Shown in pieces: positions 7,735-33,198 of a stretch of 54,581 nt of DNA. Every line of letters begins with the position of its first letter. Position 1 is the first letter of the stretch. The DNA comes from Methanothermobacter tenebrarum. GTDB lineage: Archaea; Methanobacteriota; Methanobacteria; Methanobacteriales; DSM-23052. The stretch lies in NCBI RefSeq assembly GCF_003264935.1, contig NZ_QLOE01000010.1:1-54581 (forward strand), written 5' to 3'. The position numbers and the translations under genes are program-made. Under the pieces are notes generated by a model, which did not search any database, was not told the DNA's origin, and saw only the letters and a program-made list of their open reading frames with translations.

Positions 7735-7913
7735 GTGTTTTACCCCCCCATTGTTTATAGAGGGGGATCTTAATATTTGTAGTGGTTAAAATAGGATTTT
7801 TTATGAAAACCACACACTCCGTATTACTATTTTTTCTTCCATATTTAAACTGTTAATACTTTATTGTGTGTTTATATACCCCTTCCATTATAATCTTTTA
7901 ATGGTGATCCAAT

Positions 7914-9698
7914 TTGAAATTTTCAGTGTTTCCATTCACGGCAATCATAGGACAAGAACATCTTAAAAAAGCCCTCATATTAAATGCCATCGACCCCACC
8001 ATAGGTGGAGTGCTCATAAAAGGAGATAAAGGCACTGGGAAATCCACCGCCGTAAGAGCATTCGCAGAACTACTACCAGCAAGAGAAGTGGTTGACGGTT
8101 GCACATTCAACTGCAACCCAAATGAAACCCATCTTCTCTGCCAAGAATGTAAAAAGACCCTTGAACAGAAGGGCAGACTACCCACCATAAAAAGGAAAAT
8201 GTCAATAGTGGAACTCCCAGTCTCTGCCACAGAAGACATGGTAGTAGGGTCACTTGACATTAAAAAGGCATTGCGTGAAGGCATTAAAGCCCTCGAACCT
8301 GGTATACTCGCCCGTGCAAATGGTAACATACTCTACATCGACGAAGTGAACCTCCTAGATGATCATGTTGTCAATGTTCTGCTTGATGCAGCTGCAATGG
8401 GAGTTAACATCATCGAAAGAGAAGGAGTCTCAGTATCCCATCCATCCAAATTTATACTAGTTGGTACAATGAACCCAGAAGAAGGAGACCTAAGGCCCCA
8501 AATACTTGACAGATTCGGACTCTGCGTAGAAATTAAAGCCTTAACAGACCCCCAGCAAAGACTCAGAATAATAAAATATAGGATGAAATTCGATGAAAAC
8601 CCAATAAAATTCCAGGAAAAGTTCCGAAAAAAACAGAAAAGATTACAAAAGATGATATTAAACGCGAAAAACCTCCTAGATGAAGTTGAAATTTCAGAGG
8701 ATCTTCTCGAGCTTATAGTGAAAATATCAGCAGCCCTAGGTATCAGGACACATCGAGCAGATATTATAACAGCAAAAGCCGCCACGGCAATAGCAGCATT
8801 CAACCAAAGAAAAAAAGTGAAAGAAGAAGATGTGAAAGAAGCCGCGCTACTCGCACTAAAACATAGAATAAAACAATTACCATTCGAAAAAGAACAAGAA
8901 ATCGACGAAGAACTAATCGAAGAACTAATAGAGGAACCAGAAGACGACTTCGAAATAGATAAAAAGAGAAGACTCAAAAAAGATGTGAAAATAGCTGAAT
9001 TCACAGGCACCATACAAGGCAAAAACTCCGCCAACATCACAGGAAAAAGGGGCAAATACATCAAAGCCAAGGAAACCACAAACCCAGATAGTATCGCCAT
9101 CGACGCAACAATAAAAAAAGCCATAAGAGAAAACCCAGAAAATCCCATGGAAACACTACCAGAACACCTAATGGAAAAAGTGAGAATAAGCAAAGCAAAA
9201 GCACTATACCTCATACTACTAGACTCATCATCCTCCATGAAACTCGACAAAAAAATAAAATTCGCCAAAACCATCGCATGGCTACTACTCAAAGAATCCT
9301 ATGAAAAAAAGAACAAAGTCGGCCTCATATCATTCAAAGGCGATGAAGCCCAGATAATAAGCGAACCCACAACAGACCTTACAAAGGTCAACGAAGCCCT
9401 TGAAAACTTGCAAATCGGGGGTAAAACACCATTAACCCCAGCTCTTATGGAAGCAGCTAAACTAGCATCCCAATACAAGGAACTAGCCCCCACAATCATA
9501 GTCATATCTGATGGCCGCTGCAACATCTTCATAAAATCTAACCTCGAAGAAGACCTTAAAATACTCTACCCAGAACTCAAAAAACTAAACCTAATATTCG
9601 TGGATGCGGAGCCTAAAGGACGCAATATAGGAGTCCTTGAAGAAATCGCGAACAAGTTCAATGCTCCGATATTCTATCTTGACGATATATTAATCTAA
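7914..9698 (+). CDS. Chelatase motor subunit: ChlI-like AAA+ fused to ChlD-like VWA domain
   Basis: 594 residues, from TTG directly behind GGTGATCC. The AAA+ part has Walker A GDKGTGKS (residues 37-44), a four-Cys insert (C63, C67, C76, C79), and Walker [11 protein letters not shown], as in Mg-chelatase ChlI. An acidic linker follows. The C-terminal VWA domain carries the metal-site motif DSSSSM, the Thr in GKTPLTPA and the Asp in VISDGR. Such proteins pair with a CobN/ChlH-type subunit and use ATP to drive metal insertion into a tetrapyrrole. That subunit is encoded downstream at 12491. Which metal and ring are handled is unknown. Confidence 0.88.
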
Positions 9699-26771: not shown

Positions 26772-27734
26772 TTGCTAACAGTTGAATTTAACACTATAAT
26801 AACAATATCTATCATTTGTTTCATAGTGGCATTTTCATCAACCTACCTTGTAATGCCAAGATTAATAAACAAGCTAAGGAATGCTAACGTGGTCGGTAAA
26901 GACATCCACAAGATTTCCAAGCCAATAGTCGCCGAAATGGGTGGTATTGGAATACTATTCGGATTCATAATAGGAATGTTCATAGCAATCTGCACATTCC
27001 CAAAACTTCATTATGAACTCATGGTAACCTTACTTGTTATCATACTAGTCGGCCTCGTGGGTATGGTAGACGACCTTGTAAGGCTATCATCAAAGGAAAA
27101 ATTATTCCTCTTATTCTTGGCTGGACTCCCACTTATATGGGTGGCCCCACCTAACGTGGGTATACTATATCTTATAAGCATGCCGATAGCAGTTTCCATT
27201 GCTTCGAACCTCACCAACATGTTAGCTGGCTTGAATGGGATCGAATCAGGATTAGGATCTATAGCTATGATATCACTCACGGCATCCTGTATAATAATGG
27301 GAAAATATGACGTTTCACTCATTACAATGACAATGTTAGGTTCGCTGTTAGCCTTTCTAATATACAATCGTTACCCCTCACGTGTATTTCCAGGAGATGT
27401 TGGTACACTTATAATAGGGGCATGTATAGCTGCTGTGGCATTCATAGGACGTATAAAGAGCATAGCATTCATCGTATTATTGCCCAATATAATAGATTCT
27501 ATCCTGAAATTCTATAGTGCGGGTGTGATGGAGAGGCATCAACACGCCCCTACAAGGGTTACAGAAGATGGTAGACTCGTAGCCCCCCCAGAGGGGTTCA
27601 ATTCGCTTATAAGATGGATACTTAGAAAACCCATGAAGGAAAAACATGTTGTACTCATCGTATGGTTTATAGGAATATTATTCGGCTCCCTTGGAATACT
27701 ATTAGCATTTATATTACCCCTTGACCCGATATAA
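26772..27734 (+). CDS. MraY/GPT-type glycosyl-1-phosphate transferase (family 4)
   Basis: 320 residues from TTG behind GGTGATCC, about ten membrane segments. Family motifs are GMVDDLVRLSSKEK (catalytic Asp pair), NMLAGLNGIESG and VFPGDVGTL, plus a His-rich loop (ERHQHAPTR). Such enzymes move a sugar-1-phosphate from a UDP-sugar to a polyprenyl phosphate, either the MraY step of wall precursors or the dolichol-linked GlcNAc step of N-glycans. The organism and the nearby Mur ligase favour pseudomurein, but both remain possible. Its end overlaps the convergent TPR gene by 21 bases. Confidence 0.85.
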   Translation: MLTVEFNTIITISIICFIVAFSSTYLVMPRLINKLRNANVVGKDIHKISKPIVAEMGGIGILFGFIIGMFIAICTFPKLHYELMVTLLVIILVGLVGMVDDLVRLSSKEKLFLLFLAGLPLIWVAPPNVGILYLISMPIAVSIASNLTNMLAGLNGIESGLGSIAMISLTASCIIMGKYDVSLITMTMLGSLLAFLIYNRYPSRVFPGDVGTLIIGACIAAVAFIGRIKSIAFIVLLPNIIDSILKFYSAGVMERHQHAPTRVTEDGRLVAPPEGFNSLIRWILRKPMKEKHVVLIVWFIGILFGSLGILLAFILPLDPI

Positions 27735-28589
27735 TAATCTACAAATATCCGCCACAAGCCTAGAAGCTTTAGAGTCGTCTGAACTTCCAAATAGTTTAAT
27801 TGCATTTCTAAAATTCTCTAAAGCCTCTTCTTCATTCCCTTTTATGAAATGTATGACGCCTAGGAAAACATTCACAACCCCAAGTGGCATTTTATTCCCT
27901 TTCTTAGCGAATATCTCCGCAGCCCGTTCAAAATAATTGAATGCATCATCATAATTCTTATCTTCAAAAGAACGGGTTCCAAGGGTTAGGAGGATGGAAG
28001 CTTCACCTGATTCATCATTTATTGCAGTAGCTATATCTAGGGCCTCTTTCAACTCTTCAATGGTGCCCTCAGATGGTTTGTATTCTGATTCTAGACGTCC
28101 AAGTAATGTTCTCAACTTTGGGATTATCTTGTCGATATCAACTTCTAACTTTCCCGGTTCAAAAATCTTTGGGGTTTCTTCAAATTTTTTATGCAATTCG
28201 GCCATTTCTATGGCTTCTTTCATCTTCTCAACTTCGCTTATCTTCTCTTTCATCTCAGCTTTGCGGGGTGATTTAATTGAAGAATAAATTTTGAATGCTT
28301 CCTTGAAATACTCAATAGCAATATCCATCTCTCTCTTATCTAGGTAAACATCACCCATAAAATCGAGTACAACAGCTTCTAGTTCCTTATCATCCATTTC
28401 AACAGCTACTTTAAACGCTTTTTCAAGGTATTCCATAGCATTCTCATGTTCACCCTCATCAAGATAATATCCTGCTATGGATAACAAAATATCGAACTCT
28501 TCTTCCCATAATTCTTGGAGGCGACGAATATAATCTTCTAATGACCTTCCTCTTCCAAATAGGTCAAATAGGCCCAATATTGATATCAT
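27714..28589 (-). CDS. TPR protein, last gene of the Roadblock/GTPase/KaiC-like unit
   Basis: 291 residues from ATG 28589; it overlaps the stop of the gene before it as ATGA and has TTGGGGAA upstream, a sign of coupled translation. Two or three TPR units lie at about residues 30-105 (FDILLSIAGYYLDEGEHENA, then MEYLEKAF; VLDFMGDVYLDKREMDIAIE), followed by a charged coil, then more TPRs at 200-275 (ASILLTLGTRSFEDKNYDDA, then FNYFERAAEIF). TPRs are scaffolds for protein contacts, so it may tie the GTPase and ATPases to a partner. I see no catalytic motif. Confidence 0.8.
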   Translation of the reverse strand: MISILGLFDLFGRGRSLEDYIRRLQELWEEEFDILLSIAGYYLDEGEHENAMEYLEKAFKVAVEMDDKELEAVVLDFMGDVYLDKREMDIAIEYFKEAFKIYSSIKSPRKAEMKEKISEVEKMKEAIEMAELHKKFEETPKIFEPGKLEVDIDKIIPKLRTLLGRLESEYKPSEGTIEELKEALDIATAINDESGEASILLTLGTRSFEDKNYDDAFNYFERAAEIFAKKGNKMPLGVVNVFLGVIHFIKGNEEEALENFRNAIKLFGSSDDSKASRLVADICRLLYRVKG

Positions 28590-29266
28590 TTTATTCCCCA
28601 ACATTCGATCCCCTTATCTGTTATGGTGTATTGGGCAGATTTTTTACCTGCTGAAGATTCTATTTGGATTTTCTCCCCATCTAAACATAATCTTAAATCG
28701 GCTAAATCCATCAAAGAAGTTTCAATCTGAGATTCAACAGTCCCCGTTGTATGTACCACAACCCCCACACCCTTAGCTTCACTTATACGACTCTTATAAG
28801 CTCTAACAAGCCTCAAAACCAGACTTGGAGGGTTGAATGCGAATATCATTGTGAGAGAGTCCAATATAGCCCTAAACTTGGATGATCTCCTAAATAATGA
28901 ACGTGTACCCACACCCACCTTTACCATAAGATCAGTAAGGTTTTGAACCGAAGAAAACTTTAATGTCCCTGAATCCTCAACCTTAACACCAGCCAAGCGA
29001 GTTAGCAAATCTATTATGTAAACGTCACCGCTTTGAATATATGGTCGCAGAAACCAATTAAATTCCATCATCCTCTGCTCAAGTTGCCTAGAACCATAAT
29101 CAGCCACTATATACAAGCATGGTTCACCACCTTCAAGGCCTGAATAAAGAAACTGATAACAGAATATGGACTTACCCACCTTAGGAGGGCCGTAAAGTAA
29201 TATAAGATCCCCTGGTGTCACATCCTCCAATAGATCATCCAAAACCTTCACTTTCTGGTCTGTCAT
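28586..29266 (-). CDS. KaiC-like RecA-fold ATPase, single domain
   Basis: 226 residues from ATG 29266, behind GTGTGATAG. Walker A is GPPKVGKSIF and Walker B FRAILDSLTMIFAF, with the KaiC-type flow LDDLLEDVTPGDLILLY, then PCLYIVADYGSRQLEQRM. The end carries a small beta region and QYTITDKGIECW. It is a close paralogue of the next gene upstream, which suggests local duplication. KaiC-like single-domain ATPases in archaea are signalling or motility-linked proteins. The operon places this one with a small GTPase and Roadblock protein. Confidence 0.82.
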   Translation of the reverse strand: MTDQKVKVLDDLLEDVTPGDLILLYGPPKVGKSIFCYQFLYSGLEGGEPCLYIVADYGSRQLEQRMMEFNWFLRPYIQSGDVYIIDLLTRLAGVKVEDSGTLKFSSVQNLTDLMVKVGVGTRSLFRRSSKFRAILDSLTMIFAFNPPSLVLRLVRAYKSRISEAKGVGVVVHTTGTVESQIETSLMDLADLRLCLDGEKIQIESSAGKKSAQYTITDKGIECWGIK

Positions 29267-29281
29267 AACTATCACACAAAT

Positions 29282-29980
29282 TTAGTCAACTACTATACCC
29301 TTAGGGGTTATATCATATTGTCCTTTTACCTTACCACCCCCAATCATGGCCTCTATGGTGAGATTCTCCCCATCAAGGTGAATTATATTATCTACTATGG
29401 CCTTTAACATGTTTTCAACCTTGGAGGAGGCTGAACCTTCAGTGTAAGTTACAATGGCTGTTCCTCCACTTTCTTTTATACGCATTATATAGACTGTGAG
29501 CACCCTTACAATCAGAACTTCGTCATTGAATGCCATGAGAGTCGTTAACGAATCAAGAACAGATCTGAAACGGGGAGACTTTGATATTATCTGGCGCATG
29601 GCCATCCCCAATTTTACCATGATATCTGTGGGATTATGCACAGATGATAAAAAATAATTGGGTTTACTTTCAACTTCCACGCCCGCAATTGTTGATATGG
29701 CATCTATAAAATAAAAACTTTCATTTTCTATATATTCATCAAGGTTCCAACCAAAATTGGCTATGTTCCTTTCAATGTCCTTCAAACCATAATCTGTGCT
29801 GATATAAAGGCATGGTTCATTATTACGAAGACCTTCAAATGCAAATTGATAGGAGAAGACAGATTTCCCAACCTTTGGAGGACCGTAGACGAGTGTAACA
29901 GTGTTCTCCGCGAATGATCCGCCCCCTCCACCTACAAGTTTATCTAAACCTGGAATTCCTGATGAAATCCTTACAATCAA
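29282..29980 (-). CDS. KaiC-like RecA-fold ATPase, single domain (paralogue)
   Basis: 232 residues from TTG 29980. The site GGTGATTG overlaps the stop of the GTPase gene, so translation is probably coupled; the ATG at 29992 would overlap that gene. It starts with SSGIPGLDKLVGGGGGSF, the usual KaiC/RadB opening. Walker A is GPPKVGKSVF and Walker B FRSVLDSLTTLMAF. The C-terminus mirrors the next gene (GQYDITPKGIVVD). It probably hydrolyses ATP as an oligomer with its paralogues. It lies 16 bases upstream of the second copy. Confidence 0.82.
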   Translation of the reverse strand: MIVRISSGIPGLDKLVGGGGGSFAENTVTLVYGPPKVGKSVFSYQFAFEGLRNNEPCLYISTDYGLKDIERNIANFGWNLDEYIENESFYFIDAISTIAGVEVESKPNYFLSSVHNPTDIMVKLGMAMRQIISKSPRFRSVLDSLTTLMAFNDEVLIVRVLTVYIMRIKESGGTAIVTYTEGSASSKVENMLKAIVDNIIHLDGENLTIEAMIGGGKVKGQYDITPKGIVVD

Positions 29981-29981
29981 T

Positions 29982-31157
29982 TCAATCACCATAGAGCAAT
30001 CCTAGGAGAGCTTCAAGGGCATCAGTAACTCCCTTCCCCTCTGTTACTATCGCTGGTATGATGGGAATGTCCTCGCCAAGTTTCATTTTTTCACGTATCT
30101 CCTCTGGTGAAAGCGCCCCTGGCAAGTCTTGCTTATTCGCGATTAAAACCTTTGGTATAGCCTCCGCCTTTGCCTTCCTTATCATCTCCTTGGCCCTTGC
30201 AAATGTTTGCGGGGCTGTCGAGTCAACAATTATAAAAGCACCAACCGATTCCCTACCTAAAACGTCTAATAGTAAGTCGAACCGTTCCTGGCCTGGTGTG
30301 CCGAATACATCAGCTATAAAACCTTTATATTCAAGATGTCCAATATCTAATGCTATAGTGGTTGGGAAAGCCGATAGAGCCTTCCTATCAACTGAAACCG
30401 ACTTCTTTGATATTTTCTTCACGAAAGTCGATTTACCTGCATTGTACGGGCCCGTGACTAATATCTTGGGTATGTATACTTTAACTCCTCCTGGTTGCAC
30501 CACAAAGAATAGTACCATAGTATCTGATGGTTCGGACCATGAAGAATGGGCCACCATAAAACCTTGACCTATTATAACCCTTTCCTCTATTGTTTTAATC
30601 TCAACCACACAATCCATGGATTTTTTAAGATTCTGGATTAGATCATGGTTATAATCCCATTTTGTGAAGAGATAAATTAGGCTGGCATTATATTTTTTGC
30701 CATGTGAATTCCATTTTTTTATAATGTTTATTGTCTCATCTTCTCCAAGATAATCTATTAGGGTTGAAAGATTATTTATGATACCTATACCATCTGGCAC
30801 GTCCTCTATAGCTTCTAGGATCACATCCTCTACCTGTGAATAGTCCTCAATGGAATATTTGGCATCTGATGGTAATCCCATGAACGGTGAAGTTCCATCA
30901 ACAAAGAAAGCTTGAGTATCTTTTAAGAATTTTTCAAGATCCCAGCCATAGGATCTGAACTCATATATTATCGTTTCAGGTTCGGCCACATTCGTGAATA
31001 TGAAACCTTTATCTCCCTCTCCTAGTCGTCCATTTAGCATCTGATAGCCAAACGCCTCATAATCCACGCCAGGAACGGCTGAGAACATTACAGAGGCGTT
31101 ATCGATTATACCACCACCGAGTATGTCGTCAAGTTTAGGGATGTACGTCTTTTTCAT
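29982..31157 (-). CDS. Inactive KaiC-like domain fused to a Ras/Arf-like small GTPase
   Basis: About 391 residues from ATG 31157 (GGAG 8 bases before). Residues 8-225 align with the two KaiC-like neighbours ([20 protein letters not shown]), but the ATP loop reads [12 protein letters not shown] without GK[S/T], and Walker B is IINNLSTL where the others have VLDSL. The domain is therefore probably dead. From about 230 a complete GTPase follows: G1 [10 protein letters not shown]2 FPTTIALD, G3 [12 protein letters not shown]4 NKQD. Roadblock proteins, such as the one encoded just upstream, are known partners of such GTPases (MglB with MglA). It is likely a GTP switch docked to KaiC-like rings. Confidence 0.88.
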
Positions 31158-31159
31158 CT

Positions 31160-31537
31160 TCACATCTCCTTGAGGATTTCTTCAACTTGACTTGCCCTAC
31201 TTTCCATTTCAACGAGTAAAAGACCCAACTGGGCGTCTGGTTCTGCGAGCGCAGTTAATATAGCCTTCTCACCCGCAGGTTTTAGGATTATTATACCCCT
31301 CTCAGTCCTCACGGTGATCTCATCCACTGCACCAGTGTTCATCTGGCCAGAGGCGGCCTCCGCAGCCCCCATGATAGTGGAACATAAAGCTGAGAAGATT
31401 CTCGCATCCACGTCTGGGGGTGTGCGTGCATTTATAAGAAGACCTTCCTTGGATACTATCCCAGATGCCCTTATTTGTCCAACTTGCATGAAACTTGAAA
31501 GAACATCATCTAATTTTTCCTTTTTTGTTTTAGTCAT
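31160..31537 (-). CDS. Roadblock/LC7 domain protein
   Basis: 125 residues from ATG 31537, right behind GGGTGGACCT. The sequence has the Roadblock pattern: [20 protein letters not shown], then GLLINAR, then [20 protein letters not shown], then [18 protein letters not shown]. Roadblock proteins act as dimers that regulate small GTPases, as MglB does for MglA in bacteria. The GTPase gene starts within a few bases of this stop. It is first in the five-gene unit and has its own TATA box upstream. Confidence 0.9.
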
Positions 31538-32614: not shown

Positions 32615-32715
32615 ATGAAACCCCTAGTATGATAATACGAAAAAATGTTAATATAATTTCCCCCTTATAATTTTATAGCAGAGCCCCCCAAATTATATCA
32701 TAGTGGGGAATGAAA

Positions 32716-33198
32716 ATGTATAAGATAGTATTATTTAGCGGAGGCCCCTACAGATTCGAAGAATTTGAAGAGTATGTGGAGGACATTGGAGGTTTAGTGC
32801 TTAAAAAGGATCGTTTCAATGTGAGCAGAGGCGAATACTTCCTAGCCGAGGAAGTCAAAGCCCTAACAATAATACCCGAAGAAGAAGAGGAACAATTAAA
32901 GACGATCGTAACTGGGATAAAAGGGTTCATCCAAGAATTACCATTTGACGAAGACAAAAAAAGGAGAATACTACTCTGCATACTCCTACATGACTCATTG
33001 ACTAGGAACCCCCAATGGATGGGAGAAGAGGAAATAGAAGAAAAACTAATCTGCCCATGTGAAATTAAATTCTGTGAAAATTCTCCAGAATGCTTCATTG
33101 ACTTGTCAGAAGTCCTAGATGCAATGGTGGAAATGGAACTATTAGAAAAGAGAAATAATAAAGGCACAACAGAATATAGGATAAAAATTATACAATAA
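32716..33198 (+). CDS. Conserved-looking soluble protein of unknown function
   Basis: 160 residues from ATG 32716, behind GGGGAATGAA; ATG 32710 overlaps that site. It is acidic and soluble (SGGPYRFEEFEEYVEDIGG at the start). Cys residues at CPCEIKFCENSPEC could bind a metal. The C-terminal part (LSEVLDAMVEMELLEKRNNK) looks like the end of a winged helix. Divergent from the pilin-like genes. Family not recognised. Confidence 0.65.
   Translation: MYKIVLFSGGPYRFEEFEEYVEDIGGLVLKKDRFNVSRGEYFLAEEVKALTIIPEEEEEQLKTIVTGIKGFIQELPFDEDKKRRILLCILLHDSLTRNPQWMGEEEIEEKLICPCEIKFCENSPECFIDLSEVLDAMVEMELLEKRNNKGTTEYRIKIIQ

Follow-up and report, generated by a model that had tools for sequence, protein, structure and literature searches.

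A Roadblock protein, a small GTPase fused to a pseudo-KaiC domain and KaiC-like ATPases: a probable archaeal signalling system

Introduction

What might an archaeon do with a Roadblock protein, a small GTPase and several KaiC-like proteins encoded side by side? The question is raised by a five-gene block on the minus strand (31537-27714) of contig NZ_QLOE01000010.1 of Methanothermobacter tenebrarum; the window analysed here is this whole contig (G000:C10, 54,581 nt) of a 1.47 Mb methanogen genome. The block encodes, in this order, a Roadblock/LC7 protein, a KaiC-GTPase fusion protein, two further KaiC-like proteins (KaiC1 and KaiC2) and a tetratricopeptide repeat (TPR) protein. Roadblock proteins and small GTPases are membrane and polarity regulators in bacteria and eukaryotes. 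An earlier note on this DNA had seen in the block three KaiC-like domains and a combined GTP/ATP switch. The switch remains the best reading, although one of the three KaiC domains seems to be a pseudo-ATPase. Since a second archaeal phylum has the same parts close together as well, the block probably specifies a real and so far uncharacterised signalling system of archaea, and we estimate at about 55% the probability that it specifies one signalling complex, in which a Roadblock-set GTPase would be docked via the pseudo-KaiC domain on KaiC1 and KaiC2, with the TPR protein as output.

Results

In the fusion protein the KaiC domain comes first (residues ~5-231) and is followed by the GTPase (~232-388), which matches the Arf and Ras families of Pfam with 47 and 34 bits. 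At the place of the Walker A motif the KaiC half reads VPGVDYEAF, which is no P-loop, and the P-loop signature GK[ST] is absent from this half in every aligned homologue, distant ones included. As no homologue checked possesses a Walker A motif there, the KaiC half is, judged from its sequence, a pseudo-ATPase domain. The Walker A lysine, absent from the fusion in all aligned homologues, is present in KaiC1 and KaiC2, which both carry the motif GPPKVGKS, kept for KaiC2 among relatives. The earlier count of three KaiC domains thus stands, but only two of them retain a P-loop.

The GTPase half, on the other hand, has intact motifs that are conserved in relatives (G1 GPYNAGKS, the switch I threonines, G3 DVFGTPGQE and G4 NKQD) and is 75-98% identical across Methanobacteriales; the closest named relative found is Methanobacteriaceae archaeon 41_258, with a fusion protein 93% identical. 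Together with Roadblock (79-96% identical across the order, 81-97% in eight relatives from several of its genera) it is the best-conserved element of the block, while the pseudo-KaiC half, KaiC2 (43-56% identity outside the genus) and the TPR protein evolve faster, a pattern that fits a conserved switch with putatively lineage-specific docking and output. A small GTPase that stands alone, with 36% identity to that of the fusion and ATPGH as G3, is encoded at G000:C5:90950-91384 (minus strand) between aroA-like and endonuclease III-like genes and occurs mainly in block-bearing genomes.

The same parts recur beyond the Methanobacteriales. A full-length fusion, 51% identical overall (66% in the GTPase half, 40% in the pseudo-KaiC half), is encoded in the Methanomassiliicoccales genome CP070739.1, where the gene order is Roadblock, Rab-like GTPase, V4R, fusion, KaiC1 and KaiC. 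Whole-genome profile searches covered the Methanobacteriota and the class of this genome, other archaeal phyla being covered by a pattern-limited scan, and long relatives of the fusion were found in ~28 of 300 genomes of that class. Twenty Thermoplasmata neighbourhoods were read (L115 to L134). Thirteen of these (L116-L128) show the order KaiC1, fusion, Roadblock, with numerous 4-nt overlaps, some of the loci being truncated where contigs end; Roadblock is mostly followed by a second Roadblock gene and mostly by a ~155-aa protein, then by KaiC genes. Among these KaiC genes, one that was checked at L117 encodes a TPR-KaiC fusion protein, which links TPR directly to KaiC, and proteins of similar size occupy the same place at other loci. 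As order and flanks differ from those in Methanobacteriales, the linkage is not leftover synteny.

The Thermoplasmata loci also bear on the relation between Roadblock and the fused GTPase. Wherever Roadblock is adjacent, in Methanobacteriales and Thermoplasmata alike, the GTPase motifs are intact (33 of 33 loci). At six Thermoplasmata loci (L129-L134) Roadblock is missing and the order is KaiC1, fusion, Rab-like GTPase; in all six the GTPase of the fusion no longer has the switch I threonines or the G3 motif GTPGQ, and in five it has lost G4 as well. In one Methanobacteriales genome (G049) the site reads pilA-pilB-KaiC1-KaiC2, with Roadblock and fusion both missing; nor did the rest of this 490-contig draft yield the fusion. 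The gene overlap, the joint absence in G049 and the decay of the GTPase without Roadblock support the pairing of Roadblock and GTPase indirectly.

Within the Methanobacteriales, the fusion is present in 18 of 100 genomes. The Methanobacteriales, in which the earlier note proposed to look for conservation of the gene order, are therefore too wide a frame, as only part of the order carries the block, and too narrow a one in view of the Thermoplasmata. All 18 relative loci inspected share the order of the five genes, apart from contig ends, inserted genes at three loci and one hybrid KaiC (G010, L039), where KaiC1 and KaiC2 seem to have merged into one gene. At this last locus a truncated pilB also runs in frame into Roadblock (7888-8646, minus strand), giving a frame of ~250 codons that may reflect a deletion or a real fusion. 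The genes are thus kept together in relatives, so that the loss of linkage by which the earlier note would have been refuted is not observed, and as the same parts occur in a second phylum in a different order, the block is not a chance arrangement. Roadblock domains were found in 19 of the 100 genomes, namely the 18 carriers and G049, and carriers usually encode additional Roadblock proteins and a separate small GTPase at other sites of the genome.

An extra ~165-aa gene without a Pfam match lies inside the block at L049, L050 and L051; its identification as V4R was rejected (hhalign probability 0.2%), and the comparison with the ~155-aa gene of L117-L127 (P 0.005, probability 7.5%) is no more than suggestive of kinship. 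At L044, L049 and L051 an extra KaiC-like protein with DUF7504/DUF7090 matches is encoded between the pilin-like pair upstream of the block and Roadblock.

The flanking genes (methionyl-tRNA synthetase, primase-like, helix-turn-helix, glycosyltransferase, cobM, nikR) are likewise conserved in order among carriers, so that conserved order in carriers alone proves little. More informative is the comparison with 16 non-carrier loci at which both flanks, the pilin-like pair and the glycosyltransferase, are visible: in 11 of them pilB and the glycosyltransferase gene are spaced by at most 172 bp, while the other five show ~0.4 kb (one), ~1.1 kb (one), an unrelated gene (two) or a rearrangement (one). 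As the block is absent as a whole from the same site in non-carriers, its five genes behave as a unit that is gained or lost together.

Coordinates and Pfam matches (Table 1), the latter far above the cut-off, bear out the five overlapping or near-overlapping genes described earlier; all three KaiC domains exceed the cut-off of 26.6 bits for PF06745. Fusion and KaiC1 genes overlap by 11 nt and KaiC2 and TPR genes by 19 nt, and between KaiC1 and KaiC2 there is a 15-nt gap, which shrinks to 6 nt if KaiC2 starts at a possible GTG at 29275 rather than at the ATG at 29266. The nearest solved structures to the Roadblock protein include the Roadblock/LC7 proteins 7f8m, 9jue and 7yh1 and CvnB5 (3leq).

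Table 1. Genes of the block in the window
Gene product	Length (aa)	Coordinates	Strand	Features
Roadblock/LC7 protein	125	31160..31537	-	ATG start 31537; PF03259 79.1 bits
Pseudo-KaiC/small-GTPase fusion	393	29982..31163	-	PF06745 56.8 bits; PF00025 47.4 bits
KaiC1, single-domain KaiC-like ATPase	236	29282..29992	-	PF06745 115.3 bits
KaiC2, single-domain KaiC-like ATPase	226	28586..29266	-	PF06745 66 bits
TPR-repeat protein, final block gene	296	27714..28604	-	PF13424 74.8 bits

To the left, the block is bordered by a convergent glycosyltransferase family 4 gene and to the right, ~140 nt away and on the same strand, by the pilin-like pair (32614-31677). Further to the right, on the plus strand (32710-33198), a 162-aa protein matches only the N-terminal part of the methanogenesis marker 7/McrC-like family (PF04609, 31.8 bits). 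A search of viral contigs and plasmids for relatives of the block found none, and since the PADLOC defence models gave only generic TPR and marginal matches to the set, identity as a defence system was rejected.

Discussion

How could these parts work together? In the complex favoured here, a Roadblock dimer would bind the fused GTPase and determine, in the manner of MglB with MglA, whether it is in the GTP or the GDP state. The pseudo-KaiC half, devoid of the usual ATP binding, would be a docking subunit which places the GTPase in a KaiC1/KaiC2 hetero-oligomer; the GTP state would then alter ATP binding by KaiC1/KaiC2 or their assembly, and the TPR protein would relay the state to a target. 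Regulation of the fused GTPase by Roadblock is suggested by the homology to MglA/MglB and the pattern of GTPase decay, while the docking role of the pseudo-KaiC domain is proposed on the model of the inactive subunits found in P-loop rings. Physical contacts, GTPase-activating or guanine nucleotide exchange activity, ring formation and the direction of signalling we infer likewise.

Several observations weigh against this assignment. The AlphaFold model of the fusion is poor, with a mean predicted local distance difference test score (pLDDT) of 59.5. In the glycosyltransferase tree all Methanobacteriales carriers fall into one clade, so that a single gain or a single loss is enough, and the correlated occurrence of the genes in this order may reflect one evolutionary event. 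The same may apply to the coincidence of decayed GTPase and missing Roadblock, as L129-L134 group together in a single clade that lies within the loci with Roadblock. At L115 the GTPase is mostly intact (with NHSD as G4) and no adjacent Roadblock was recognised, which breaks the rule. Finally, KaiC1 of Thermoplasmata has GKF or GKL in place of GKS and lacks the Walker B aspartate, which means that ATPase activity of KaiC1 is not essential everywhere.

Among the alternatives, the one that survives best, although we regard it as unlikely, is that the block is a dedicated type IV pilus regulator with the pilin-like pair as its target, acting on the pilus ATPase in the manner of MglA or of an ArlH-type KaiC. 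Nearly all carriers indeed encode two class III signal-peptide (pilin-like) proteins directly upstream on the same strand; in the window their N-termini read CERG|VFTTD and GRG|QITGDY, they have no Pfam match, and the AlphaFold model of a pilin-like protein (pLDDT 78) has no convincing match in the PDB. Moreover, Roadblock proteins of arCOG02603 and KaiC families are often found near archaeal pilus loci (Makarova 2016, PMC4858521), and Myxococcus pili are reported to be stimulated by MglA-GTP (PMC9481161). However, pilB is present in 98 of the 100 Methanobacteriales genomes, most of which do not have the block, and pilA-pilB stay at the same place there, on which ground membership of the pair in the block was rejected; in most carriers, furthermore, pilB is separated from the next block gene by 112-187 bp, and the Thermoplasmata loci have no recognised pilin-like neighbours. 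A tie between the block and the presence of pilus machinery was rejected as well, since the pilus ATPase family PF00437 is found in 100 of 100 Methanobacteriales genomes. Neither the block nor its neighbours gave a Pfam match to this secretion ATPase family, whose best match in the genome lies on contig C4.

Slightly less probable still is a polarity or membrane-domain switch of the MglA/MglB kind with the KaiC proteins as mere scaffolds. Roadblock and a Ras/Arf-like GTPase form the core of bacterial polarity modules, and the Methanomassiliicoccales copy has in addition a Rab-like GTPase and V4R, which PMC10933270 relates to TRAPPC3. Against this stand the ATP-binding motifs kept by the Methanobacteriales KaiC proteins and the Pfam matches of the block, among which no membrane anchor or pole-localising partner was recognised; no evidence was found for a role of the block in polarity, motility or timing.

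That the genes are just neighbours through conserved synteny, without a common function, would agree with the conserved flanks of the carriers, but is improbable in view of the same set in Thermoplasmata with other flanks and order and of its absence as a unit from the site. A KaiBC-type timer can be dismissed almost entirely. Three KaiC-type domains are present in the block and a KaiB gene in the genome, but this gene (80 bits) lies directly behind a two-domain KaiC on a different contig (G000:C2:16186-17799), whereas the block KaiCs are single-domain and have DY for the catalytic acidic pair EE in KaiC1 and KaiC2, so that identity as a KaiBC-type clock was rejected and the two KaiC domains, EE pair and KaiB partner of the cyanobacterial clock have no counterpart in the block.

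A signalling complex built around the Roadblock-GTPase pair has partial likenesses in several known systems. As in MglA-MglB, a Roadblock gene is coupled to a GTPase of the Ras/Arf superfamily, whose GTP state Roadblock is thought to set; the two genes overlap by 4 nt in the window and are adjacent at the 33 loci. MglA is, however, a single-domain GTPase of less than 240 aa, and MglAB includes no KaiC or TPR genes, while the block GTPase is joined to an N-terminal KaiC domain in a longer protein. The NCBIfam model for Thermus-type MglB gives the Roadblock protein 16.7 bits against a cut-off of 200. As GTPases above 240 aa were left out of the classification by Wuichet and Sogaard-Andersen (2014, PMC4316618), where archaeal Group 4 mglA is reported to lack conserved neighbouring genes, the fusion falls outside of it. 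The actinobacterial conservons CvnABCD are also multi-gene units with Roadblock (CvnB) and GTPase (CvnD), CvnB5 being one of the nearest solved Roadblock structures, but the Pfam matches of the block include neither a histidine kinase (CvnA) nor CvnC (DUF742), and KaiC and TPR proteins are encoded in their place. The Asgard Roadblock, Rag/Rab and TRAPPC3-like proteins offer a further parallel, with Roadblock dimers as small-GTPase platforms in archaea, but for these the available part of PMC10933270 describes no KaiC component, and the block GTPase matches Arf/Ras, not Rag. With ArlH, KaiC1 and KaiC2 share the single-domain archaeal KaiC-like architecture and an intact Walker A motif, but they score far below the ArlH model cut-off of 215 bits (37.2 and 27.1 bits), and no archaellum genes were recognised nearby.

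KaiC ATPases may act as signalling hubs in archaea, as proposed by Makarova, Galperin and Koonin in mBio in 2017. Both PMC5847659 and PMC6393860 cite the hub proposal, and PMC5847659 describes, at second hand, KaiC homologues that have been inactivated (iKaiC); KaiC ATPases and inactivated homologues are common to this proposal and the block. The available parts of both papers do not mention Roadblock, a GTPase fusion and TPR together. The parts of the block are of known kinds, but their arrangement was not found in the literature searched, the 2017 hub survey lying outside that search. Tentatively, the block may represent an undescribed system of two or more phyla, in which a GTPase under Roadblock control would be built via a dead KaiC into a KaiC assembly and GTP would gate an ATP-driven ring.

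With respect to archaeal biology, KaiC-family ATPases have been proposed as central signalling hubs. A GTPase naturally fused to a dead KaiC, beside Roadblock and KaiC proteins in two phyla, offers a concrete physical link between Roadblock-GTPase regulation and KaiC ATPases, and it does so in Methanothermobacter-type methanogens, which are cultivable.

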